Source: Phycisphaerae bacterium | GTDB taxonomy: Bacteria; Planctomycetota; Phycisphaerae; Sedimentisphaerales; Sedimentisphaeraceae | Direction: 5' to 3' | DNA length: 39,166 nucleotides | Assembly (NCBI GenBank): GCA_015493385.1 | Contig: WGDE01000010.1 | Span: 1-39,166, forward strand | In this document: positions 1,187 to 38,929 of the stretch, piece after piece | Numbering within the stretch: position 1 is the first letter of the stretch | How the letters are laid out: each line of letters starts with the position of its first letter | Translations under genes and position numbers: made by a program | The notes under the pieces: model-generated | Seen by the model: only the letters and a program-made list of their open reading frames with translations | Told to the model about the DNA's origin: nothing | Databases searched by the model: none

Positions 1187-2026
1187 TTAATTCTCAAATG
1201 GAATAGAACGTGATTTTTTAAGGTCGTGCCGCTTCATCTTTAATGCTTTAGCAAAGACCTGACCCAAAAACTTTTTATCCTGCGCAGTTAGCCTACTTGC
1301 GTTTATATAAGAAAGATAAAAACGCAGCTTCATAGTCCTTGAATATACACTCGACGGACTCGAATAGAATAGCTGCGCAATATCTTTGACTCTAAATCTC
1401 TGGGCAAAGATTGGCTTAAAGACTCTCTGCAAGTCAATTAAATAGAAGCCAGCTTCTCTGCCCCAGAAAATGTGGCACAGATAAAAGTCGCGGTGACGCA
1501 GTCCAAGGTTATGGAAACGCTGCGCAAATTCCCCTAAATTTCTGGCAAAGTTTTTTTGTTTACTTACATCAAACTCATCACTAGATTTATCAAAAAAGCT
1601 AGGGGTGGTTTTTTCTAGGCTTGTTGCATCGTAAATATTTTCAGTGATAAGTAGGCTTATTTCTTCAAACAATAAACCTGTCTTTGCGCCATAAGCAATT
1701 ACTTTTGGAGTTTTAATGTTTGCTGCCCTGAATTCTTCAATAGGCCCCATGTCATAGTTGGCAAGTGGTGCTTTTTTGCGGTGGTCAAGCCAGTTTTGCA
1801 ATTGAAGTTTACGAGGCGCGTGGTTGTAGAGCTTAAGATAGAAGATTTTGCTATCTAACTCAAAGCGAACTCTCTTTCTAAAATTTGCCAAACCTTTTTT
1901 GTCTAAGAACTCACCTCCTTGAAAATTATTAATTTTTTCAATGGAGTCTAGCCCTGCATCTTTAAAGAGTTTGGTGTATTCTCTATGAATCCACAACCCT
2001 TTGGATATTTGATCGAAGTCTCTCAT
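1187..2026 (-). CDS. WaaP/RfaP-like lipopolysaccharide core kinase
   Basis: This 279-residue protein has the Kdo/WaaP kinase fold. The catalytic loop reads 'LRHRDFYLCHIFWG' at about residue 175, matching the HRDxYxCH signature of the E. coli heptose kinase WaaP, and the metal-binding aspartate follows in 'FYLIDLQRV'. An N-terminal glycine/lysine segment ('FRKRVRFELDSKIFYLKLY') would form the nucleotide-binding lobe. WaaP enzymes phosphorylate inner-core heptose I with ATP in the cytoplasm, which stabilises the outer membrane. The start overlaps the rfbB stop by four bases (ATGA), indicating translational coupling, and a WaaG-like gene follows. No signal peptide or membrane helix is seen. The kinase family is secure; the precise sugar acceptor is inferred from context. 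Confidence 0.85.
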   Translation of the reverse strand: MRDFDQISKGLWIHREYTKLFKDAGLDSIEKINNFQGGEFLDKKGLANFRKRVRFELDSKIFYLKLYNHAPRKLQLQNWLDHRKKAPLANYDMGPIEEFRAANIKTPKVIAYGAKTGLLFEEISLLITENIYDATSLEKTTPSFFDKSSDEFDVSKQKNFARNLGEFAQRFHNLGLRHRDFYLCHIFWGREAGFYLIDLQRVFKPIFAQRFRVKDIAQLFYSSPSSVYSRTMKLRFYLSYINASRLTAQDKKFLGQVFAKALKMKRHDLKKSRSIPFEN

Positions 2027-3036
2027 CTATCTTCGTACATCTCGTTATAATAATTTAGATAATCACCGCTGGCAACATTTTTTAGCCAAGTTGTATTCTC
2101 AAGATACCATTCGATTGTTTTTTCTATCTGCTCTTCAAATGTTACCGTAGGGCTCCAGCCGAGCTGTTGTTTGATTTTGCTAGAATCTATTGCGTATCTC
2201 CTATCATGGCCTGCTCTATCGGTTACATGTTTGATTAGAGATTTGTCTTTGCCTAGCTTGGATAAGATTAGCTCTATAACTTCAATGTTTGTTTTTTCGT
2301 TATTACCTCCGACATTATAAACCTCGCCGGATTTGCCATGTGTTAATACTTCCCAAATTGCGGTGCAATGGTCGTACACCCAAAGCCAGTCACGTATTTG
2401 AAGCCCATCTCCATAGACTGGCAAGTCTTTATCGTGCAGGGCATTGTTAATCATCAGAGGAATCATTTTTTCTGGGAATTGAAATTCTCCGTAGTTGTTG
2501 CTACATCTTGTTATATTGTAGCTAAGCCCATAGCTATGGCCAAAGGCGGCGACTAACATATCTGCTGAGGCTTTGCTTGCAGAGTAGGGCGAGTTTGGGC
2601 TAAGCGGTGTTTGCTCGGTAAATAAACCATCCTCTCCTAGCGAGCCATAAACTTCGTCTGTTGATACCTGTAAAAATTTCTCAATTTTTTTCTCAACAGC
2701 AGCGTTTAGTAAAGTGAGTGTGCCTTGGACGTTCGTCTCAATAAATATGCCTGGGTTGGTTAGCGATCTATCTACATGGCTCTCTGCGGCAAAGTTTACA
2801 ATTGAAGTAATTTCATATTTGTCTATTAGATTTGCAACAAGCTGCGCATCGCAAATGCTGCCTTTAACAAAGCAATGATTAGGATTATTTTGGTAACCAT
2901 CCAAGTTTTCTAGGTTTCCGGCGTATGTAATGGAATCGAGATTAAGCACAAATGTATCATCGTGATTGTCCAAAATCATCCTAACAAAGCAACTGCCGAT
3001 AAACCCTGCTCCACCTGTCACTAAAACATTCTTCAT
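2023..3036 (-). CDS. rfbB: dTDP-glucose 4,6-dehydratase
   Basis: Converts dTDP-glucose to dTDP-4-keto-6-deoxyglucose, the second step of dTDP-L-rhamnose synthesis, in the cytoplasm using bound NAD. The Rossmann motif 'GGAGFIGS' lies at the N-terminus, the catalytic 'STDEVYG' segment is in the middle, and the YxxxK pair is in 'YSASKASAD'. The ORF track starts at 3042, but an AAGG sits directly against that ATG; the second ATG at 3034-3036 has the same AAGG six bases upstream and gives the family-typical start MKNVLVTGG, so I choose it (337 aa). It follows rfbD by about 60 bp and overlaps the WaaP-like gene by 4 bp. Full length for the family. Confidence 0.95.
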   Translation of the reverse strand: MKNVLVTGGAGFIGSCFVRMILDNHDDTFVLNLDSITYAGNLENLDGYQNNPNHCFVKGSICDAQLVANLIDKYEITSIVNFAAESHVDRSLTNPGIFIETNVQGTLTLLNAAVEKKIEKFLQVSTDEVYGSLGEDGLFTEQTPLSPNSPYSASKASADMLVAAFGHSYGLSYNITRCSNNYGEFQFPEKMIPLMINNALHDKDLPVYGDGLQIRDWLWVYDHCTAIWEVLTHGKSGEVYNVGGNNEKTNIEVIELILSKLGKDKSLIKHVTDRAGHDRRYAIDSSKIKQQLGWSPTVTFEEQIEKTIEWYLENTTWLKNVASGDYLNYYNEMYEDR

Positions 3037-3082
3037 ATTCATCCTTAACCATTTTTATCAATGCGTTCGTAGTAGAAAATCT

Positions 3083-3100
3083 TTAAGGGGTTTCCCTTAA
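3083..3100. repeat. Short palindrome overlapping the rfbD stop codon
   Basis: A perfect 7-bp inverted repeat, TTAAGGG-gttt-CCCTTAA, includes the rfbD stop codon (complement of 3097-3099). A near-identical palindrome overlaps the rfbC stop at 4062-4075. No T-tract follows, so it is not an ordinary terminator. It may be a small transcript-processing or termination-codon context element. Confidence 0.6.
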
Positions 3101-3945
3101 GCGAGTCTAATATACTCATCAAGCATTTCTTGCCAAGTAGGGAGCTTGCGACCTAGCAATTTTTCAATCTTTGAACAGTCAAACTTACTGTTTAACGGTC
3201 TTTTTGCAGGAGCAGGAAACTCATCACTTGAACAGGGGAATATTTTAACCTCAATTCCAAGCTTTTCAAAGAGGTATTTAGCCATTTCAAATCGGCTTGT
3301 GTAACCATTAGCCGCAAAGTGGTAGATTCCTGTAGGGAATTGTTTTAGCAGTAAAATATCTCGTAGCGACTTTGAGACTTCTACGGTATGTGTAGGTGAG
3401 CCAATTTGATCATTAACTACTTTGATTTGATTTCTAGTGCGGGCAAAATCTTGGATTTTTGTAATGAAGTTTGCGCCATCTTTGCCGTACGTCCATTCAA
3501 CACGTATAATGCAGGCGTCTGCGTCAGAATCAAGAAGTAGATTCTCACCAAGTAATTTTGATGAGCCGTAAATACTAAGCGGTGCAGGTTTATCGAGTTC
3601 GGTGTAGGGTGATTCTTTCTTGCCATCAAACACAAAATCCGTGCTAATATGTATGACTGGGATTTTGAGTTTCTTGGCAATTCCTCCAAGCTTTCCAACG
3701 CTATAGCCGTTAACCTCATTTGCGACTATCTCATCAGACTCAGCTTTGTCAACGTTAGTATAGGCAGCGCAATTTATAACAAAATCACTGCCTTGCATGG
3801 AATCTTCAAGTTGTGAGGTATCTGTTATATCGAAATCTGGAAGATCGTAGCATTTAATATCAAATCCGCTAGAGAGCAATGTCTGTTGCAGATCGCTACC
3901 AAGCATTCCGTTTGCGCCGAGTATTGTTATTGTCTCTTTACTCAT
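3097..3945 (-). CDS. rfbD: dTDP-4-dehydrorhamnose reductase
   Basis: Reduces dTDP-4-dehydro-L-rhamnose to dTDP-L-rhamnose with NAD(P)H, the last step of the pathway. The 282-aa protein starts with the Rossmann loop 'LGANGMLGSDL', followed by 'INCAAYTNVDKAESD', 'STDFVFDG' and the catalytic 'YGSSKLLGE' (YxxxK), all diagnostic of RfbD/RmlD. The length is normal for the family. It follows rfbC by 127 bp, the longest gap within the rfb group, with no terminator visible there. The stop codon lies within a short palindrome. The ATG at 3943-3945 is the only reasonable start because the nucleotide-binding loop begins at once. Confidence 0.95.
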   Translation of the reverse strand: MSKETITILGANGMLGSDLQQTLLSSGFDIKCYDLPDFDITDTSQLEDSMQGSDFVINCAAYTNVDKAESDEIVANEVNGYSVGKLGGIAKKLKIPVIHISTDFVFDGKKESPYTELDKPAPLSIYGSSKLLGENLLLDSDADACIIRVEWTYGKDGANFITKIQDFARTRNQIKVVNDQIGSPTHTVEVSKSLRDILLLKQFPTGIYHFAANGYTSRFEMAKYLFEKLGIEVKIFPCSSDEFPAPAKRPLNSKFDCSKIEKLLGRKLPTWQEMLDEYIRLA

Positions 3946-4061
3946 TGTTTTGTTGCCTTTGTATTGCTATTTTGGGTCCATATTGTGGGGTTATATGTAT
4001 GTGTATCTGTGATTTATTGTTATATGCTATTTTTTCTCACCCCAATTCGGCGGTAGATTTC

Positions 4062-4075
4062 TAAGGGTTCCCTTA
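4062..4075. repeat. Short palindrome overlapping the rfbC stop codon
   Basis: TAAGGG-tt-CCCTTA is a perfect 6-bp inverted repeat that contains the rfbC stop codon (complement of 4073-4075). It matches the palindrome at the end of rfbD. In the coding direction both read TTAAGGGAA(A)CCC(C)TTA. Confidence 0.6.
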
Positions 4076-4624
4076 AAATTTAGGTAACATATTCTCGTCA
4101 ATCTCAGAAAGCCGTAAACCATTGCTGTCTTTTTCAGATAAATTAGGAGTATTGACAGGCCAATTAATATCCAAATCGGGATCATTCCAAATAATTGCAC
4201 CTTCGTAGTCTGGCTTGTAATAGTTGGTGCATTTATACGCAAAGAGGGCAGTTTCGCTCAATACACAAAACCCATGTGCAAATCCTTCTGGAATATAGAA
4301 CTGCCTTTTATTCTCACTATTTAGAATTACGCTCTCTGTTTGCCCAAATGTTGGTGACCCAACTCGTATATCAACGGCAACATCAAATACTTCGCCGTCT
4401 AATACCTGTACCAGCTTGCCCTGTGGGCTTGGATTTTGGTAATGAAGCCCACGTAAAACGCCTTTGGCTGAAAGGCTCAAATTGTCTTGTACGAAGGTAA
4501 CATTGAGCCCCACATCATGATATCTCTTTGCGTGATAAGTTTCTGTGAAGAAGCCTCTCTTATCTCCAAAAACTTTGGGTTCTATTATTAAAGCACCATC
4601 TAATTTTGTTTTTATAACATTCAT
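4073..4624 (-). CDS. rfbC: dTDP-4-dehydrorhamnose 3,5-epimerase
   Basis: Epimerises C3 and C5 of dTDP-4-keto-6-deoxyglucose to give dTDP-4-keto-L-rhamnose. The 183-aa cupin protein carries the catalytic histidine in 'LRGLHYQNP', the '[18 protein letters not shown]' strand and the 'PEGFAHGF' motif of the RmlC family, plus the typical '[19 protein letters not shown]' C-terminal part. Its start overlaps the rfbA stop by four bases (4621-4624), so the two are translationally coupled. Gene order is rfbA-rfbC-rfbD-rfbB. Length is family-normal. Confidence 0.95.
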
Positions 4625-5493
4625 CGATTTATCATCTCAATAAGATACTTGCCATATTCATTGTTCTTTAGAGGCTCGGCTTGATTAATGACTTCTTGCG
4701 CAGTTATCCATTTGTTATGAAAAGCTATTTCTTCGGGGCAGCAGACCATCAATCCTTGTCTTTGTTGTATTGTTTGCACGTAATTTGAAGCTTGGAGCAT
4801 TGCTTCGTGCTCTCCAGTATCTAGCCATGCAGTTCCACGCCCTAGCATCTTAGCGTTGAGCTTGCCGAGTTTGAGATATTCTTTGTTCAAATCTGTTATC
4901 TCTAACTCTCCTCTAGCTGATGGTTTGATTTGTTCGGCTAGCTCGCTGACCTGTGAGTCGTAGAAGTATAAACCGACCGCAGCATAGTTAGATTTTGGAT
5001 TTATTGGTTTTTCTTCTAGACCTAAAACCTTGCCATTATTGTCGTATTCAATCACACCGTAACGCTGCGGGTCTTTGACGTAGTAACCAAATATTGTAGC
5101 GTTATCTTTATCAGCGTTTGCTGCTTGGAGATCTTCGATTAGTCCATGCCCGTAGAAAATATTATCGCCTAGAACTAAAGCGGCGGGAGAGTTATCTAGA
5201 AACTCTTTACCTATTATAAATGCCTGCGCAAGACCGTCAGGGGATGGTTGTTCTGCGTAGCTTAGCGATAAACCCCACTGTGAGCCATCACCCATAAGCT
5301 TTTTGAATAGGGGTAAATCTTGCGGTGTAGAGATAAGCAGGATTTCCCTAATTCCTGCAAGCATTAGCGTAGAGAGAGGGTAATAAATCATTGGCTTATC
5401 GTAGATAGGTAGTAATTGCTTACTAACCGAACGAGTTAGCGGGTAAAGCCTCGTACCAGAGCCACCAGCTAGTATTATTCCCTTACGTTGCAT
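4621..5493 (-). CDS. rfbA: Glucose-1-phosphate thymidylyltransferase
   Basis: Makes dTDP-glucose from dTTP and glucose-1-phosphate, the committed step to dTDP-L-rhamnose. The 290-aa protein has the nucleotidyltransferase signature '[20 protein letters not shown]' at residues 10-29, '[10 protein letters not shown]' (metal-binding Asp) and '[14 protein letters not shown]', all typical of short-form RmlA. It is the first gene of the rhamnose set. An AAAGG lies about 8 bases before the ATG. The best promoter match is so close to the ATG that the transcript would be nearly leaderless, so readthrough from the msbA unit 59 bp upstream may also feed this operon. Confidence 0.95.
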
Positions 5494-5552: not shown

Positions 5553-7715
5553 CTATTTTAATAACTGCGTCTCGTATAGTCGCTTATAGATAGCGCAGTT
5601 TTGCGCTAGTTCGTCATGAGTTCCTTGAGCGATTACTTCACCAGCATCTATTACTGCAATAGAGTCTGCTGATATTACAGTGCTAAATCTATGCGCGATC
5701 AAGAAGCAGGTTCTTCCCTTCATTATAGTTGACAGGGCGTTGTGAATCTTCATCTCACTATCTGCGTCAACCTGACTCATTGCTTCATCAAAAATTAGAA
5801 TGGCAGGGTTTTTAAGTATCGCTCTAGCGATAACTATTCTTTGCAGTTGCCCGCCACTGAAACCAGAGCTATGCTCACCTATCATGGTGTTGTAGCCATC
5901 AGGGAGCCGCTCAATGAATTCGTGTGCAAAAGCTTTTTTAGATGCTTCAACTATCTCTTCCATTGTCGCATCTGGTTTGCTATAGCTTATGTTATTGGCG
6001 ACAGTGTCGTTAAAAGTAATGATACCCTGAGTTACCATACCAATCTGACTGCGCAGGCTTTTTGCGGTTGCTTTGTGGATATCTTTTCCGTCAATAGTAA
6101 TTTGCCCACTGTCAGGGTCGTAGAATCTTGGTATGAGATTAATTAAAGTCGACTTACCACTTCCGTTTGACCCAACAATGGCGATTGTCTGACCCGCCTT
6201 TACTTTTAGGTTTAAGTTTCTAAGGGCTGCCGACTGGGCGTTAGGGTAAGTAAATGTGATATCCTTAAAGACAATTTCTTCTTTCATTGGCTCAAGCTCG
6301 AACGCATCAGGCTCTTCATGTTCGAGTGGATAATCAATGACTTCAAAAACCCTCTCTGCAGCGGCATTTGCAGCTTGGACATTATTCCAAACACCGCTTA
6401 CTTTTCTGATTGAATCTGCCGCAGTGCCAAGGAAAGCGAGTAGGACGAAGAATTCAGACGGTTCTATATTTCCCTTAGTTACCCATGACGCTCCAAATAT
6501 CAATGCGGCCGCGCAGGCTATCATGCCGAGCACTTCTAGTAGAGGGTTTGTCATCCTCTCAATTCGAGAGACCTTCAAGAGCCTTTTGATTAGAATTTCA
6601 TTTGCCTCTCTATAGCTTTTAACTTCATGGTCTTGGCGATTGTAGACTTTAATAACTCGAAGGGCTGCCATTGCTCCTTGGATAAGTCCGAGCATTCGAG
6701 ATGTAGATTGTAGAGATCGTTTGCTAGCTTTCTTAATCTTTCTACCTAATATGCCAAATGCAGCAATGGTAAATGGCGCGGCAGCTATAAATATTAATGT
6801 CATCTGCCAATTTATACATACAGCCATTCCAATACAAGAAGCGGCTTTGATTGGCTCTCTGATTGTTTTGCCAAGAAGAACTTTGACCCCTTTTCCGCAT
6901 TGAGCCACATCATTAATCAAGCGACTTGTTGTATCGGAAGTTCCCTTACTAGAGAAGAAACCAACTGGCATATTGACGATATGCCTGAATAGGTCGTCTC
7001 TGAGTTGGCCTACGGCGATATTCATAATTTTGTCTGCTAAATACGTTTGGAAGAATCTAGCGATACAACGAAATATTGTTAGTGCCAACATGACAATCAT
7101 TACGATAATGATTGCCTTAGCTTTAACATCTTTGGTTTCATTGCGTGGTAAGAAGCTTGCCGGCCATTGCATTGTATCGTAGTAGAAATGATATTTGGGC
7201 GGCTTGGCATGGATTTCTTTTCTCTCGGTTTCTCCTAGAGAATTGGTACGCAAAAACTGAATTGTAAGATCAGATACATTTTTTGTTGTAGCTAGTTCTT
7301 CAAGAAGTTTGGTTGAAGGAATATTTGGGATTTTTTCACTGATTGCGTTGCCAACTCCAATGATTCTATCTTGGCTCATTAACCCAGCTTCATCAGCCCA
7401 TCCTTCTTTATTTACCTTTGTTATTAAGAGGTAGTGGTTAATTCCTCCGTCTGAACTGTCGTTTTGATAATCTGTGATGTCTGGAACATAAAATTTCATA
7501 TCGTATCTATTGCTAGAAATTTTACGATCCACCCATCCGTGTAGCCCCTCGCTACCCATCATAACTTTTAAAATTGGCAAGAGTGTTAAGAAGCTCGTGG
7601 TAAACATCATTGCGATTAGTATAGACCACAAGACTACACCGATAACTCGCTGCCACTGGTTCCAAACATATTTCCATATACGTTTAAATGCTGCTAAATT
7701 GTCTTTTTTTTTCAT
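5553..7715 (-). CDS. MsbA-type ABC exporter with PDZ-like insert after TM1
   Basis: A 720-aa fused membrane/ATPase half-transporter of the MsbA/ABCB type. The C-terminal ATPase shows Walker A 'GSNGSGKST', the Q-loop region, signature 'FSGGQ' (usually LSGGQ), Walker B 'AILIFDEA' and H-loop 'LIAHRFST'. The first helix spans about residues 24-46 and the second about 199-217. Between them lies a roughly 150-residue segment, far longer than the short loop in MsbA. Residues ~93-172 read as a PDZ domain: 'ITKVNKEGWADEAGLMSQDRI' then a helix 'STKLLEELATT' and strands 'LTIQFLR'. By topology this segment is periplasmic. The neighbours lpxI, lpxD and rhamnose/core genes suggest that it flips lipid A-core or another glycolipid. 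It has its own promoter and a hairpin leader. Confidence 0.9.
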   Translation of the reverse strand: MKKKDNLAAFKRIWKYVWNQWQRVIGVVLWSILIAMMFTTSFLTLLPILKVMMGSEGLHGWVDRKISSNRYDMKFYVPDITDYQNDSSDGGINHYLLITKVNKEGWADEAGLMSQDRIIGVGNAISEKIPNIPSTKLLEELATTKNVSDLTIQFLRTNSLGETERKEIHAKPPKYHFYYDTMQWPASFLPRNETKDVKAKAIIIVMIVMLALTIFRCIARFFQTYLADKIMNIAVGQLRDDLFRHIVNMPVGFFSSKGTSDTTSRLINDVAQCGKGVKVLLGKTIREPIKAASCIGMAVCINWQMTLIFIAAAPFTIAAFGILGRKIKKASKRSLQSTSRMLGLIQGAMAALRVIKVYNRQDHEVKSYREANEILIKRLLKVSRIERMTNPLLEVLGMIACAAALIFGASWVTKGNIEPSEFFVLLAFLGTAADSIRKVSGVWNNVQAANAAAERVFEVIDYPLEHEEPDAFELEPMKEEIVFKDITFTYPNAQSAALRNLNLKVKAGQTIAIVGSNGSGKSTLINLIPRFYDPDSGQITIDGKDIHKATAKSLRSQIGMVTQGIITFNDTVANNISYSKPDATMEEIVEASKKAFAHEFIERLPDGYNTMIGEHSSGFSGGQLQRIVIARAILKNPAILIFDEAMSQVDADSEMKIHNALSTIMKGRTCFLIAHRFSTVISADSIAVIDAGEVIAQGTHDELAQNCAIYKRLYETQLLK

Positions 7716-7738: not shown

Positions 7739-7763
7739 GGGACCTCTCATAATTAGAGGTCCC
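7739..7763 (-). promoter_or_regulatory. Perfect 9-bp stem-loop in the msbA-type leader
   Basis: GGGACCTCT-aattatg-AGAGGTCCC (read on the minus strand) is a perfect inverted repeat with a 7-nt loop. It begins about 9 nt after the predicted start of the msbA-type transcript and ends 23 nt before the ATG. No T-tract follows on either strand, so it is better read as a 5'-leader hairpin or operator than a terminator. Confidence 0.6.
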
Positions 7764-7969: not shown

Positions 7970-8827
7970 TCAGTGGCCAACAATGGCTATTTTTAGTTTG
8001 TCTGCGAGTTCAATTGTTTCTGGTTTGTCGATGATTATAGTCTTGCCCGCTTCAATGACGAGGCATTTGGCATTAGCTTCTTTTAAGCCCTTAATCGTTT
8101 CTACGCCAACGCAAGGAACATCAAAACGCATATCTTGGTCTGGTTTTGCTGTCTTTATTAGAGTCCAGCCGCCTTTTTTGCAAAGCTCGCCAGCGCGTTT
8201 TATCATTCTTGCGGTTCCCTCAATAGCCTCGACTGCTATGATGTCGCCGTCGCTAACGGCAATCGCTTGACCAATATCAAGCTCTCCCATTTTTTTGACG
8301 AGTTTCCAGCCAAACTCTATATCATCTAAAACACCAGAACTCGGTTTGGTTTTTGTCATAGTACCTTTAGTTGCCAAATGCTCCTTGCAGTATTTTGTTG
8401 AGTCTATCAAATTGATTCCTCCGCTTGAGAGTTCATCTGCTAATGCGCACAGAAGGGTGTCGTTTCGTTTGTCTTTGCCGCGCAGCCTGATAAAGTATGT
8501 CCTAAGAACTCGCCAGTCTGGTAAGTATGCTAAGATAAGCTTGAAGATGGAACCGTCTTGAAGTCGCTTCTTTGAAACTCTACCTACCATTACAGTGTCA
8601 CTTGCACCATATTTTCTAAGTTTTGATATCCAAGCGCCAAGCCGAGCGATTGGGACTTCGTGAAATTCATCTACAAGGCTCGCAAGTTCCGGTTCGGCAT
8701 TACCGCTCAGAGCCGCGCAGACAACACGGACGCCGCGTTTCTTGGCACCTTGGGCGATTATGAAGGGCAACCTACCCTGACCTGCAATAAGACCAATAAT
8801 TTGCTCAGATGAATTTTTCACTCTCAA
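7970..8827 (-). CDS. lpxI: UDP-2,3-diacylglucosamine pyrophosphatase LpxI
   Basis: LpxI hydrolyses UDP-2,3-diacylglucosamine to lipid X and UMP, the fourth step of lipid A synthesis, in organisms that lack LpxH. The 285-aa protein begins with 'IGLIAGQGRLPFIIAQGAKKRG' and has the internal 'MVGRVSKKRL', 'SSGGINLIDSTKY' and C-terminal 'FDVPCVGVETIKGLKEANAKCL' blocks of the LpxI (formerly DUF1009) family. The start is TTG at 8825-8827, with AAGGA about 7 bases upstream; a GTG six bases further in (8819-8821) is the alternative. It lies 18 bp behind lpxD and shares its promoter. Confidence 0.92.
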   Translation of the reverse strand: MRVKNSSEQIIGLIAGQGRLPFIIAQGAKKRGVRVVCAALSGNAEPELASLVDEFHEVPIARLGAWISKLRKYGASDTVMVGRVSKKRLQDGSIFKLILAYLPDWRVLRTYFIRLRGKDKRNDTLLCALADELSSGGINLIDSTKYCKEHLATKGTMTKTKPSSGVLDDIEFGWKLVKKMGELDIGQAIAVSDGDIIAVEAIEGTARMIKRAGELCKKGGWTLIKTAKPDQDMRFDVPCVGVETIKGLKEANAKCLVIEAGKTIIIDKPETIELADKLKIAIVGH

Positions 8828-8845: not shown

Positions 8846-9877
8846 TTATTGTTTGCTCTCTAATTCATCAAGACGTTTTTTAAGTTTATTTATTGTCTGC
8901 CGCATCTCTGGGAGTTTTGCAAATGTTCGATATGCTCTTTTAGCCTGAGAAGCTTCTATCGCTGGAGAACCTGCCATAATCTTCCCATCTTCGACATCGT
9001 TGATAATTGCCGACCCAGCCGCTAGCATCACCATATTGCCGACTTTCAAATGGCCAGTAACGGCAGATTGACCGCCGATTACACAGTATTGACCAAGTTC
9101 GGCAGTTCCTGCAATTCCAACCTGTGGAACAAGTAAACAGCCTGCGCCAATTTTTGCCCCATGACCAATCACTACAGAGTCCCCAATTTTAGCTCCAGTA
9201 CCAATGACTGTATCCATTAAAGAACCACGCTCAATAGCAGCGTTGGCTCCTATTTCTACATTATCCTCAAGGATTACCTTACTTATGTGAGGGATCTTGT
9301 GATGCTCTCCATTATGAGTTGCAAAACCAAAACCATCTTGGCCAATTGTTGCGTTTGCCTGAATAATAACGCCACTACCAACGATGCAGTCATCAAAAAT
9401 AACGGCGTTTGGGTATAAAATACAGTTGTCTCCGATTTTTGTGTTTGGCCCTACAAAAACGCCAGGATAAATATTGCAACCAGAGCCAATCTCTACATTA
9501 TCAGAGATTGTTACAAAATCTTGAATATTGCTATTTTCTCCAATCTTGGCAGTTTTGCTTACACTTGCCTTTTCACTTATTCCGCAAGAGGGGTGCTTGC
9601 GATGGCCAAACATAAACTCTGCTATCTGGCAGAATGCATAGTATGGATCGTCAACAAGCAAAAGTGCCTGCGCAGATGAGGATGTTTCTTTATCTGTAAT
9701 TACCGCAGAGGCTTTTGTTGTTGTTAAGTGCTTTCTGTATTTTTTGTTTGATAAAAAGCTGATATCTCCAGCCTTTGCCTCCATAAGCGGTGCGATATTG
9801 GTTATTGTGAGATTTTCATCTCCAATTACTTTGCCACCTACAGACTCAGCAAGCTCACCAAGAGTTTTATTTTGCAT
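8846..9877 (-). CDS. lpxD: UDP-3-O-acylglucosamine N-acyltransferase LpxD
   Basis: Adds the N-linked acyl chain to UDP-3-O-acylglucosamine, the third step of lipid A synthesis, using acyl-ACP. Residues 1-100 form the LpxD uridine-binding domain ('AKAGDISFLSNKKYRK'); residues ~100-310 are left-handed beta-helix hexapeptide repeats; a C-terminal helical arm ends 'INKLKKRLDELESKQ'. The catalytic histidine is probably that of 'VVIGHGAKIGAG', aligning with His239 in E. coli. The length of 343 aa is normal. An AAGGA precedes the ATG and a near-consensus promoter lies 40 bp upstream. lpxD-lpxI form a two-gene unit. Confidence 0.95.
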   Translation of the reverse strand: MQNKTLGELAESVGGKVIGDENLTITNIAPLMEAKAGDISFLSNKKYRKHLTTTKASAVITDKETSSSAQALLLVDDPYYAFCQIAEFMFGHRKHPSCGISEKASVSKTAKIGENSNIQDFVTISDNVEIGSGCNIYPGVFVGPNTKIGDNCILYPNAVIFDDCIVGSGVIIQANATIGQDGFGFATHNGEHHKIPHISKVILEDNVEIGANAAIERGSLMDTVIGTGAKIGDSVVIGHGAKIGAGCLLVPQVGIAGTAELGQYCVIGGQSAVTGHLKVGNMVMLAAGSAIINDVEDGKIMAGSPAIEASQAKRAYRTFAKLPEMRQTINKLKKRLDELESKQ

Positions 9878-9948: not shown

Positions 9949-10095
9949 AGTAAAACTGGGACTGGTACGTTCGGCCTTCGGCCGGTTGCAGGTGTCCCAG
10001 TTTTACTGCGATTGAAAGTGACGTACTGGGTTGGACCGTAAAGCCGGTACAGGTACAACCGGTCTTCGACCGAACATACCAGTCCCGGTTTTACT
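9949..10095. repeat. REPIN-like doublet of two inverted 59-bp palindromic repeats
   Basis: Copy A (9949-10007) has perfect 14-bp ends, AGTAAAACTGGGAC…GTCCCAGTTTTACT, around an inner hairpin CGGCC-ttc-GGCCG. Copy B (10037-10095) is the same element in the opposite orientation, with degenerate outer arms and an inner hairpin CGGTC-ttc-GACCG. The two are separated by 29 bp. A third copy with the remnant of a second lies at 17481-17578. Copy B overlaps the stop codon of the GT9 gene (10091-10093). The nested stems and T-rich arms could also act as a terminator for the pyrK operon. Confidence 0.85.
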
Positions 10096-11167
10096 TCAGC
10101 ACTTCCGTAGTAATATTCACAAGTTCGTCAACTGCGTCTTTGCTGTATTGGGCAAATGCACTACTACTTTGCTCTACAATTTTCACTTTGGGCCCGATAG
10201 GGGAATATGTCGCAGGATTAGTCTTTCCAAAGATTGCTACTGTTGAGATTCCAGTTGCCCCAGAAAGGTGCGATACTCCGCTGTCGTTACCGATAAATAC
10301 GTCGGCGTTTGAGATTAACTCTGTTAGCTCGATAGTGTTTAGAGATGATACTGTTGGTGCGATTTTCTTGAGCGTATCAATCTCAGATGGCTTCATTCTT
10401 TCAAGTTCGCTAGGGCCAAGGATAAATAGAACGTTAGTCTTCTTGTCTTTTAAATCTAATGCAAGTTGTTTGTAGTTGTCTATGTGCCAATTTTTCTCAA
10501 TACTACCGCTACCGGGGGCAATTATTATTGTAGGGTGGTCTGTATTTGGTAAGTATTTGTGTAGAAGTTTTTCCCCGTTGGCCTTTTGTGAATCGCTGAG
10601 GTTTATAGTTGGTTTCTCGAAGTCGAATTTCCAATCTTCTGGCGGGGTAAACGCTTCAATCGCAGCGTATTTTTCGTTTACAAGATCATCAATATGGAAC
10701 TTACTTATATGATGCGCATATTCAGCAGGTGGTTTTGCGCCGAGAGTAACAACATCTCCAGATGTTGTGTGGTAGAGTGTAGAGATTAGGTTCTTCTCAA
10801 AGTTGCCACCTTTATCACCTATGAAATTAAATATCCAGTCGTATCCTGCCAAGTCTGCCACAAGTTTGGGTTCATTATCTGGGGAGAATTCACTAGGGTC
10901 TATAAATAATTTCGAAAAATCTATACTGTTTATACTGCGGGTTTTGTCCACAACCGTTTTGCCGGGGAATAGGGCGATATGATCGATATTGCCAACATAA
11001 TCAAGGACATCTATTCGCATATGAGATTTAATGAAATCGCACAGATGAAGAGTAAGGATGCAGTCTCCAAGCGCTCCTGGGTGAATTAACATTGCTTTGT
11101 GTTTCTTTTCTTGAGATTTGCAACGTGCTGTAATGTTACCATCATCGAATATGCTATTAAAGGTCAT
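10091..11167 (-). CDS. Glycosyltransferase family 9 (ADP-heptose:LPS heptosyltransferase-like)
   Basis: A 358-aa GT-B enzyme of family 9. After a 25-residue N-terminal extension comes 'AMLIHPGALGDCILT', the GT9 N-terminal G-x-GD segment. The donor half has 'IIIAPGSGSIEKNW' and the family signature 'FIGNDSGVSHLSGATG'. Family members transfer L-glycero-D-manno-heptose to the LPS inner core in the cytoplasm. The ATG overlaps the mnmA stop by one base (TAATG), so translation is coupled. It is the last gene of the pyrK operon, and its stop codon lies inside a palindromic repeat. Which heptose position it modifies is not visible, so no symbol is given. Confidence 0.88.
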   Translation of the reverse strand: MTFNSIFDDGNITARCKSQEKKHKAMLIHPGALGDCILTLHLCDFIKSHMRIDVLDYVGNIDHIALFPGKTVVDKTRSINSIDFSKLFIDPSEFSPDNEPKLVADLAGYDWIFNFIGDKGGNFEKNLISTLYHTTSGDVVTLGAKPPAEYAHHISKFHIDDLVNEKYAAIEAFTPPEDWKFDFEKPTINLSDSQKANGEKLLHKYLPNTDHPTIIIAPGSGSIEKNWHIDNYKQLALDLKDKKTNVLFILGPSELERMKPSEIDTLKKIAPTVSSLNTIELTELISNADVFIGNDSGVSHLSGATGISTVAIFGKTNPATYSPIGPKVKIVEQSSSAFAQYSKDAVDELVNITTEVLK

Positions 11168-12237: not shown

Positions 12238-13122
12238 TTACTTCTTATCTTTTTTGAATAGATTGCCTATGCCATCAAGTGTTCCCTTAGTGGCATCTTC
12301 AATTTGATTAAGCGGGTCTTTTTTGTTTTTATTGTCAAGCATTTTCCCGATGCTATTTTCAAGTAAATCGCCAGGCTTGATATCCTTGATTCCATTTAGG
12401 GCGTCGGCAGGTATGATATTGCCAGCTTCTTTAGTCAATTGATCTGTTATTTTCAAGAAGATTATTTCTGTAAGCTTAGAAAGGTCAACCTTCTTTGATT
12501 TTCCAATATCCTTGAATTCCATTTTGGAGAGCGTTACCGACATATCTTTCTTATTACCCAACCCAGGTAGCATTTTTACCTGAACTTTCACATTTGTGAT
12601 TAACAAGTCGTCAATTACTAGGCTCTTACCACCTTGAGAAGATTCATCCTCTTTTGCAACATCTTTATCTTGCTCTTCTTTGCTTTTCTCTTCTTTATCA
12701 TCTTTTGAGCTTCCACTGTTTGCAGTAGCAGCTTTTAATAATGTTGAGACGTTACTTTTTAGGCCTTCTTGTTCGAATGAGAGGACTATACCGTCAAGCT
12801 TGATTTGTTTTATGACTACCGTATCTTTGAATAGAGAACCCATATCGATATCTGCGTAGACTTGATTGGCTTTTAAAATGTATGGCATTTTAAAACCGGC
12901 AGGGTTTGCAACATTTAGACCAGTAATTTCCATTTGACCTCTTAGAAGACTCAAGTCTAATCCTTCAACACTAACATCAACATTAAGAGCTTTTGTTCCA
13001 GCAGTTTCGATTGCTACTTTGATAGCGCGCTCACCAAAAAGGACGAAGAGGCCAATGAATATAAGTATGAGTAAGATTATGATACTTATGACTTTGCCTA
13101 TGATTTTCTTGATTGGTTTCAT
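12238..13122 (-). CDS. AsmA-like inner-membrane-anchored protein
   Basis: A 294-aa protein with one N-terminal membrane helix (about residues 10-30, 'VISIIILLILIFIGLFVLFG') and a periplasmic part whose 'VDVSVEGLDLSLLRGQMEITGLNVANPAGF' is typical of the AsmA/DUF748 group, relatives of bridge-like lipid transfer proteins. A charged low-complexity stretch rich in K, E, D and S (about residues 137-168) splits the conserved part from 'SLVIDDLLITNVKVQVKMLPG'. The C-terminus is polar with short repeats of Asn/Lys/Asp. It is far shorter than full AsmA, so a complete lipid channel is unlikely. A role in envelope upkeep is inferred from the family and the LPS context. Confidence 0.7.
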   Translation of the reverse strand: MKPIKKIIGKVISIIILLILIFIGLFVLFGERAIKVAIETAGTKALNVDVSVEGLDLSLLRGQMEITGLNVANPAGFKMPYILKANQVYADIDMGSLFKDTVVIKQIKLDGIVLSFEQEGLKSNVSTLLKAATANSGSSKDDKEEKSKEEQDKDVAKEDESSQGGKSLVIDDLLITNVKVQVKMLPGLGNKKDMSVTLSKMEFKDIGKSKKVDLSKLTEIIFLKITDQLTKEAGNIIPADALNGIKDIKPGDLLENSIGKMLDNKNKKDPLNQIEDATKGTLDGIGNLFKKDKK

Positions 13123-37526: not shown

Positions 37527-37910
37527 AATTAAAAATACTGAAATACGCTTGAGATTGGTAAAAAAGATGTGTGTGGAGATTGTATTTTGACATATCAAGA
37601 AATCTTTGACTTACGAATCTAACCATGCAATAGCTAGAAATAATTGCTATGATAATTACAGATATTTCCCAGTATATTACGAGGGAGGTTGCAATTATTG
37701 CGTTTATTAAGTCTTAAAACGGTATTAATCTTCTTGAAACAGGAATATGCTACTATACAATAAGGGTCGGTATTTCAAGGGAGAATGGGTAAGTGTGAAA
37801 AACTCTTTTGGCATCTAGAGATGCATGAGGGGGTTGTTTGCACCGAGTGTTTATGTGAGAGTTGACTTCTCGTTCATTGGTGCAGAGCGAGACGAGATGG
37901 GAATGGAGTA
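37527..37910. other. Intergenic region upstream of the dockerin/SUMF1 gene
   Basis: About 380 bases with no supportable gene. An extended -10 element TGC-TACTAT (37748-37756) may start the downstream transcript, which would have a leader of roughly 160 nt. The upstream half is AT-rich and featureless to me. Confidence 0.4.
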
Positions 37911-37924
37911 TCGGAGGTGTAGCT

Positions 37925-38929
37925 ATGAAACACCTAGCTATTTTGGTTTTAATTGTCGTGCTTTTAAGCGTTGTTTGTGTTGATGCGCAGACAACGGTTC
38001 TCAATATTGGTAATCTTACAGATAGCCCTAGGATAGACCTAATTGCCTTTGCTAAGTTTGCCTCATCATGGCAATTGTCAATTGGTGATTCTGGCTATCT
38101 AGCCGATTGTGATTTTAACGATGATGGCACTGTTGATATTTTAGATTTTGTGATATTTAGTGAAAATTGGCTACATCCATCTGGAATGGTATGGGTCTAC
38201 ATTGATGATGACGGCTTTGGTATGAAAGATATAAATGGTAATCCAATAAGCCATGGCGGCTTTACCGGTTTTATGAGCAAATATAAAACAACCAATGCTC
38301 AATATTGCGAATTCTTAAACGCAGCCCTTGCCTCTGGCGATATTACTGTTGGCGCAGACAATGTTGTTTATGGTGCAGATGGGAGTAACGCCGGCGCAGA
38401 TTTTGTCGGTGAGCCTTATTTTGAGACTTTCGCAGCAAATTCATATAGCAATATAATCTATGCCAATCAAGCATTTACTGTGCGCAACCGCGATGGATTC
38501 GATATGAGTAATCATCCGGTTATTGAAGTTAGCTGGTATGGCGCAATGGCATTTTGCAATTTCTACGCTGATTACAACCTCCCGACCCAGTGGCAATGGC
38601 AGGCCGTCGCTGATTATGATGGTAGCTATATTTATGGTTGCGGCGAGACAATAGACCACAGCAAAGTGAACTACGACCTAGAGAATCCTCTTGGATTTGC
38701 GACTACGCCATATACCTCTCCTGTAGATTTCTATGCGTCCTTTGGTTATGGGCTAAATGATATGTCTGGAAATGTAAGAGAGTGGACTCGGAGTGTCTAT
38801 AGCGGTGAATCCTATATTCTTTGCGGCGGAAGTTGGTTTACTACTGCAACTGATTGCAAGGTCGCCTACAGAGATTATTATGGCACATATCATATGTATT
38901 ACGATCTTGGTTTCCGAGTTTGCCGCTGA
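37925..38929 (+). CDS. Secreted dockerin-like / SUMF1 (formylglycine-generating-enzyme-like) protein
   Basis: The ATG at 37925 has GGAGGTG upstream and opens a signal peptide ('LAILVLIVVLLSVVCVDAQ'), so the track's 21 extra residues are dropped (334 aa). Residues ~25-85 form two EF-hand-like dockerin repeats ('LIAFAKFASSWQL…CDFNDDGTVDILDFVIFSENWL'). Residues ~90-334 are an FGE-sulfatase domain: 'KYKTTNAQYCEFLNAAL', 'HPVIEVSWYGAMAFCNFYAD', 'GLNDMSGNVREWTRS', 'CGGSWF' and terminal 'DLGFRVCR'. The paired catalytic cysteines of true FGE are not evident ('GGSWFTTATDC'), so it is more likely a binding or lectin-like member. This architecture is typical of Sedimentisphaerales and related Planctomycetota. 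Confidence 0.85.
   Translation: MKHLAILVLIVVLLSVVCVDAQTTVLNIGNLTDSPRIDLIAFAKFASSWQLSIGDSGYLADCDFNDDGTVDILDFVIFSENWLHPSGMVWVYIDDDGFGMKDINGNPISHGGFTGFMSKYKTTNAQYCEFLNAALASGDITVGADNVVYGADGSNAGADFVGEPYFETFAANSYSNIIYANQAFTVRNRDGFDMSNHPVIEVSWYGAMAFCNFYADYNLPTQWQWQAVADYDGSYIYGCGETIDHSKVNYDLENPLGFATTPYTSPVDFYASFGYGLNDMSGNVREWTRSVYSGESYILCGGSWFTTATDCKVAYRDYYGTYHMYYDLGFRVCR

Follow-up and report, generated by a model that had tools for sequence, protein, structure and literature searches.

The way in which the flippase MsbA passes lipid A-core on to the Lpt bridge is still an open question, and MsbA is not known to possess a docking domain of its own in the periplasm. In MsbA, lipid A is contacted by R78, R148, E149 and K299 (PMC8660845). 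Folded extracellular domains are found in a small set of type IV exporters, among them BmrCD of Bacillus subtilis, where the extracellular domain of BmrD is reported to have the fold of the C-terminal domain of PBP4 (PMC11466899). PglK of Campylobacter jejuni, a lipid flippase of the same fold, carries a single external helix at the periplasmic boundary of the membrane, together with a band of arginines (PMC4900756).

The exporter described here is encoded in a stretch of 39,166 nucleotides (the window) from the contig WGDE01000010.1 of a Phycisphaerae bacterium (assembly GCA_015493385.1). Its open reading frame occupies positions 5553..7715 (all coordinates written with two dots refer to the minus strand) and specifies 720 residues comprising a six-helix transmembrane domain and a nucleotide-binding domain, as in a half-transporter of the type IV ABC exporters. 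Of the first 20 residues 6 are K/R, giving the protein a basic N-terminus. An elbow helix and TM1 take up residues 8-44 (7584..7694; helices 8-18 and 21-43 in the AlphaFold model), TM2-TM6 residues 199-460 (6336..7121) and the nucleotide-binding domain, with the Walker A motif GSNGSGKS and the signature SGGQ, residues 478-718 (5562..6284). Pfam recognizes ABC_membrane (PF00664) at 187-430 and ABC_tran (PF00005) at 498-646. Just upstream of the start codon lies a perfect 9-bp inverted repeat, GGGACCTCT-AATTATG-AGAGGTCCC (window 7739-7763), which lacks a T run.

E. coli MsbA is the top Foldseek match of the full-length model (mean pLDDT 74, the insert mostly at 75-87). Since MsbA residues 64-579 align with residues 202-717 of the exporter, free of gaps over TM2-TM6, the additional residues take the place of the loop between TM1 and TM2, short in MsbA but about 145 residues long here. 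Its placement between TM1 and TM2 puts it, in the MsbA topology, on the periplasmic side. Among the NCBIfam models, the MsbA model TIGR02203 gives the best match with 442 bits; because the equivalog cut-off of 602 bits is missed, as it is by 13/13 relatives, we call the protein MsbA-type and not a TIGR02203 equivalog. With this proviso, its identification as an MsbA-type flippase is well supported by the contact residues and by the gene context given below. In an alignment of 61 orthologues, R216, E287 and R437, which correspond to MsbA R78, E149 and K299, are each kept in 61/61, and R286 (MsbA R148) in 56/61, the remaining five having no Arg there. The position of MsbA R296 is Glu or Asp in 60/61, and MsbA D252 is not kept. 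The same genome encodes a second MsbA-like exporter (C207, 422 bits), in which the lipid A-contact residues of MsbA are missing.

When modelled alone, the insert reached a pLDDT of 86.6 and a pTM of 0.80, with strands at residues 73-76 (b1), 96-101 (b2), 117-121 (b3), 150-157 (b5) and 163-170 (b6) and helices at 106-109 (aA) and 134-143 (aB). Foldseek comparison of this model with the PDB gave a probability of about 1.0 and a best E of 6.3e-5 among the 50 matches listed, which, judging by their descriptions and families, are PDZ-containing proteins (HtrA, DegS, CtpB, Prc and EpsC among them). Run against PDB sequences, a profile of the insert also retrieved PDZ proteins, the best being DegQ at an E of 1.1e-8. 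In Pfam, the PDZ family PF00595 matches residues 89-153, scoring 20.1 bits (E 8.7e-4) on the full-length sequence and 22.7 bits when the insert is taken by itself; both values fall short of the gathering cut-off of 23.2 bits. This sub-threshold match is not due to chance. PDZ-type Pfam matches at E<=0.01 were obtained with the 61 orthologues (PDZ_6 in 33/61, PDZ_2 in 22/61, PDZ in 17/61), and homologues from two other families of the class Phycisphaerae exceed the Pfam cut-offs, L164 with PDZ_6 (35.9>27) and PDZ (23.3>23.2), L166 with PDZ_2 (36.4>27).

According to the model, the insert has a PDZ fold of the circularly permuted bacterial type. The original prediction, made from the letters of this DNA, had announced an MsbA-type exporter with a PDZ-like domain at about residues 93-172, between TM1 and TM2. 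The exporter type, the insert, its periplasmic side and the PDZ fold have all been borne out, neither a cytoplasmic placement nor a structure devoid of a PDZ fold having been obtained. The start of the domain has to be revised, since its first strand is at 73-76 and the domain extends over residues ~70-172.

Conservation along the insert, as measured on the alignment of the 61 orthologues, is uneven. The membrane-proximal segment directly after TM1 (residues 45-71, PILKVMMG-S-EGLHGWVDRK..., 7503..7583, delimited by the AlphaFold model and the alignment) is the most conserved part, with a mean entropy of 0.59-1.13 and with E56 and R64 invariant in 61/61. The PDZ domain follows at residues 72-172 (7200..7502), as defined by Pfam, the PDB profile search, AlphaFold and Foldseek; its mean entropy is 1.08 in b1 and the preceding loop, 1.83 in aB, 2.55 in b5 and 3.18 in b6. 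A107, G111, D116 and I118, all PDZ-structural residues, are at least 90 % conserved. A candidate carboxylate-binding loop, RYDM (residues 70-73, 7497..7508), was located from the orthologue alignment and from the PDZ_2 match of L166, which begins here. It reads RYGM in most orthologues and RLGV in others, and its glycine (Y-G-hydrophobic) is kept in 55/61, the window protein having Asp72 instead (Y-D-M). A linker with a short helix (residues 173-198 in the AlphaFold model, 7122..7199), in which P190-R191 are conserved, leads to TM2.

Homologue searches recovered the same insert across the class Phycisphaerae, well beyond the single protein on which the prediction had been based. The exporter was matched in 59/59 relatives searched, nearly always over the insert, and the insert was covered in 26/30 genomes of a second family (f107). 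A sample of the class, consisting like the rest of the comparison mostly of metagenome-assembled genomes, gave exporter matches at E<=1e-28 in 153/198 genomes. Most of these span the insert as judged by profile coverage; 20 of the sequences were read, and PDZ motifs were clear in some and degenerate in others. In L158, L162, L163, L167, L168 and L169, from several families of the class, Pfam returned no PDZ family up to an E of 0.1. Confinement of the PDZ domain to the order of the window was considered and abandoned, as the first phylum sample held class members from short-loop families only. Beyond Planctomycetota the search covered peptide patterns specific to this exporter family, and independent PDZ insertions may exist there; a search of plasmids returned only insert-less exporters and no record covering 80 % of the query. 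Some genomes of f99/f109 (G394, G410, G401, G417 and others) yield two matches each to the profile of the insert-bearing exporter. Both copies of G410 were read (L170, L171), and such twins could possibly form a heterodimer or serve a second substrate.

Other lineages differ at the same position. In the families f8-f11 the TM1-TM2 loop has 41-50 residues and no PDZ domain. A Planctomycetia-type clade (f34, f75, f84) carries a helical, coiled-coil-like insert of 83-110 residues (L125-L130, L151-L154) that follows a counterpart of the membrane-proximal motif of residues 45-71, P-x-x-K-V-L/M...L-x-x-Y/W-V, and a third clade of orthologues has about 45 residues. When maximum-likelihood trees were computed from the core after removal of the insert, the helical, the short and the f8-f11 groups each formed one clade. 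A wider maximum-likelihood tree, in which the base of the class is weakly resolved (support 88/89), places f8-f11 among PDZ-bearing class members, and because of this nesting the simplest reading is apparently that the PDZ domain was gained once, at the base of the class, and lost once, in f8-f11. In the short-loop f8-f11 members L121, L138, L139, L141, L143, L144 and L146, the basic residue at the R78 position is absent, as is often that at the R148 position; members of f8-f11 have kept LpxC despite this missing residue.

Taken as a whole, the locus is best explained, with a probability that we put at roughly 0.6, by an MsbA-type lipid A-core flippase with an accessory periplasmic PDZ domain. 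The exporter and PDZ folds, the place of the insert, its conservation within the class and the lipopolysaccharide setting come directly from the computations; for the substrate, the dimer geometry and each step of PDZ action, we infer the following scheme. Two of the 720-residue subunits would assemble into one type IV ABC exporter, in the central cavity of which a basic ring (R216, R286 and R437) would hold the phosphates of lipid A. Driven by ATP binding and hydrolysis, the lipid would then reach the periplasmic leaflet. One PDZ domain per subunit would be exposed in the periplasm, joined to TM1 via residues 45-71, so that the domain would sit at the exit of the pump and follow the movement of TM1. 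Since members of f8-f11 are devoid of the PDZ domain yet keep LpxC, the domain is considered accessory to flipping.

Docking of a periplasmic partner, for which the original prediction had suggested an Lpt bridge component or an O-antigen factor, is a plausible function for such a module. We tentatively rank it first among the roles of the PDZ domain, at nearly even odds, the groove being predicted to bind a periplasmic or inner-membrane partner by a classical C-terminal peptide or otherwise. The groove elements b1 and aB are among the better conserved parts of the domain, which fits a working groove, although these residues take part in core packing too. Against docking stand Asp72, which occupies the place of the loop glycine in the window protein, the degenerate state of the domain in many relatives and the retention of LpxC in f8-f11, where the domain has been lost. 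A more specific proposal, rather unlikely on present evidence, has the PDZ domain recruit a periplasmic or inner-membrane partner, such as an Lpt component, a core/O-antigen enzyme or some other factor of the envelope, and thereby couple flipping physically to the next step of lipopolysaccharide export. If true, this recruitment would constitute a direct link from flippase to downstream machinery, unlike anything described for MsbA.

Candidates for such a partner were sought among LptF and LptG. By the known topology their C-termini should be cytoplasmic, and as PDZ ligands they were rejected for this orientation. One LptF/LptG homologue is enlarged in several genomes, with ~530-600 residues as compared with ~365-390 (L131:3035-4636, i.e., G000:C197; L133:2084-3706; L134:2911-4506; L136:6579-8192). 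Its Pfam match is split, and the sequence suggests an insertion of ~150-170 residues in the periplasmic part. The large form is found in Phycisphaerae with and without the PDZ domain on the exporter, the homologues in the Planctomycetia-type genomes looked at being mostly of normal length. Support for the enlarged LptF as the PDZ partner is lacking, as it also occurs in the PDZ-less f8-f11 and does not co-vary with the domain.

The strong conservation of the membrane-proximal segment would suit a structural or gating role equally well. Ranked second is a role in which the PDZ domain does without any partner. Two PDZ domains lying over the exit of the dimer would move with TM1 and, as an intramolecular cap or gate, control the release of lipid A-core. 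This is a distinct possibility, albeit a doubtful one. It accounts for the fact that the part linked to TM1 is better conserved than the rest of the insert, and the helices that take the place of the PDZ domain in the Planctomycetia-type clade look as if bulk outweighed the exact fold. There is also a precedent in BmrCD, where the outer domain of BmrD twists open (PMC10632425). However, a PDZ domain would be an odd choice in the absence of a bound ligand, the strand and helix that form the groove vary less than the outer strands, and f8-f11 manage with neither type of insert.

The choice of lipid A-core as the substrate of the favoured flippase draws on the genomic setting in addition to the contact residues. 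Upstream of the exporter lie lpxI, of the UDP-2,3-diacylglucosamine hydrolase family (7970..8827; LpxI_C 164.7 bits, LpxI_N 104.2), lpxD (8846..9877; TIGR01853, 330.4 bits > cut-off 242.5) and a heptosyltransferase-like glycosyltransferase of family 9 (10091..11167; PF01075, 85.6 bits). Downstream are found rmlA/rfbA, a nucleotidyl transferase gene (4621..5493; PF00483, 252 bits), the dTDP-rhamnose genes rmlC/rfbC, rmlD/rfbD and rmlB/rfbB (2023..4624; PF00908, PF04321, PF16363) and a Kdo/WaaP-type LPS kinase gene (1187..2026; PF06293, 73.7 bits > 21.3). The lipopolysaccharide context pointed out in the original prediction is thus present in the window. Its lpxD/lpxI part is local, as these genes adjoin the exporter in just 2-3 of 80 loci. 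The constant company consists of glycan genes, with recurrent glycosyltransferases, rml genes in up to 20/80 loci and, in 28/80, a same-strand gene that by eye is glycosidase/phosphorylase-like.

A few further features of these neighbourhoods may be recorded. A divergent gene, named by eye as metallo-hydrolase-like, directly precedes the exporter in 26/80 loci (L031-L110). In one genome (G008, L136:1819-8192) the PDZ exporter, a glycosidase/phosphorylase-like gene, lptG and lptF are gathered within ~6.4 kb. Upstream of the exporter, at a distance of a few genes, the window encodes a protein whose N-terminus is AsmA/DUF748-like (12238-13122); this family has been connected with lipid transport in the envelope. 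At 37862-38929 it encodes a secreted protein with, by eye, a dockerin-like repeat and a formylglycine-generating-enzyme-like domain.

Across genomes the exporter co-occurs with genes for lipid A synthesis and for the Lpt system, LpxC and LpxK each being found in 21/21 relatives and LptF/G in 20/21. In three genomes in which all candidates were scored (G009, G010, G011), the PDZ exporter is the sole full-length MsbA-like exporter reported. The probable task of the pump is to flip precursors of lipopolysaccharide across the inner membrane, lipid A-core being the most likely of them. The competing substrate is a lipid-linked oligosaccharide, for example a rhamnose-containing one, which the protein would flip in the manner of PglK or Wzk, with residues 58-71 playing the part of the PglK external helix. 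The rml genes and glycosyltransferases adjoining the exporter speak for it, and in the insert model a helix at 58-71 does follow TM1 directly, reminiscent of the boundary helix of PglK, which also has an arginine band (PMC4900756). It is nonetheless improbable, since the exporter obtains only 202 bits with NF050066 (cut-off 1000) as compared with 442 with the MsbA model, and since it is the sole MsbA-like exporter reported in some genomes whose set of lipid A genes is complete. An amphipathic character of the 58-71 helix, moreover, had to be rejected, as its hydrophobic moment is no greater than that of shuffled sequences (p 0.65). Least probable of all is a relic, i.e., a PDZ domain that would have been acquired a single time at the root of Phycisphaerae and, being only weakly selected for today, would be decaying in many lineages, one of which has lost it. 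The six homologues without a Pfam PDZ match, the fast evolution of b5, b6 and the loops and the apparent loss in f8-f11 speak for it; the retention of the exporter in every relative searched, the full-insert matches in f107 and the conservation of A107, G111, D116 and I118 speak against it.

How does this flippase with its accessory PDZ domain compare with what has been described? Consistent with the suspicion voiced in the original prediction, searches of an open-access library brought up no ABC exporter described as carrying a PDZ domain; domain-architecture databases may already list the combination. MsbA of E. coli (PDB 3b5w, 6bpl, 7ph3) is the nearest relative by order of transmembrane and nucleotide-binding domains, family match, lipopolysaccharide context and the positions R78, R148, E149 and K299; the exporter differs from it in the R296 to Glu/Asp exchange, in its score below the TIGR02203 cut-off and in the PDZ-bearing insert that stands in place of the short TM1-TM2 loop. 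BmrCD (PDB 9cus) is likewise a type IV exporter with an outer folded domain, anchored through TM1 and TM2 of BmrD, but the domain is reportedly of the PBP4 type and belongs to a heterodimeric drug exporter of a Gram-positive bacterium. PglK shares the fold and the helix at the periplasmic membrane boundary, though without a PDZ domain and with another substrate. In fold and in sequence, the insert itself is closest to the PDZ domains of HtrA/DegQ/DegS and of Ctp/Prc, which reside in proteases, whereas that of the exporter is nested in a transporter loop without any protease domain. GspC/EpsC of type II secretion (PDB 2i4s), among the Foldseek matches listed, offers a periplasmic PDZ domain on an inner-membrane export machine, but is a single-pass secretion protein unrelated to ABC exporters. 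The exporter adds a PDZ case to the few type IV exporters that bear a folded domain on the outside, and the PDZ-bearing class together with its helical-insert and near-insertless sister lineages lends itself to comparisons of what the periplasmic side of a lipid flippase does.
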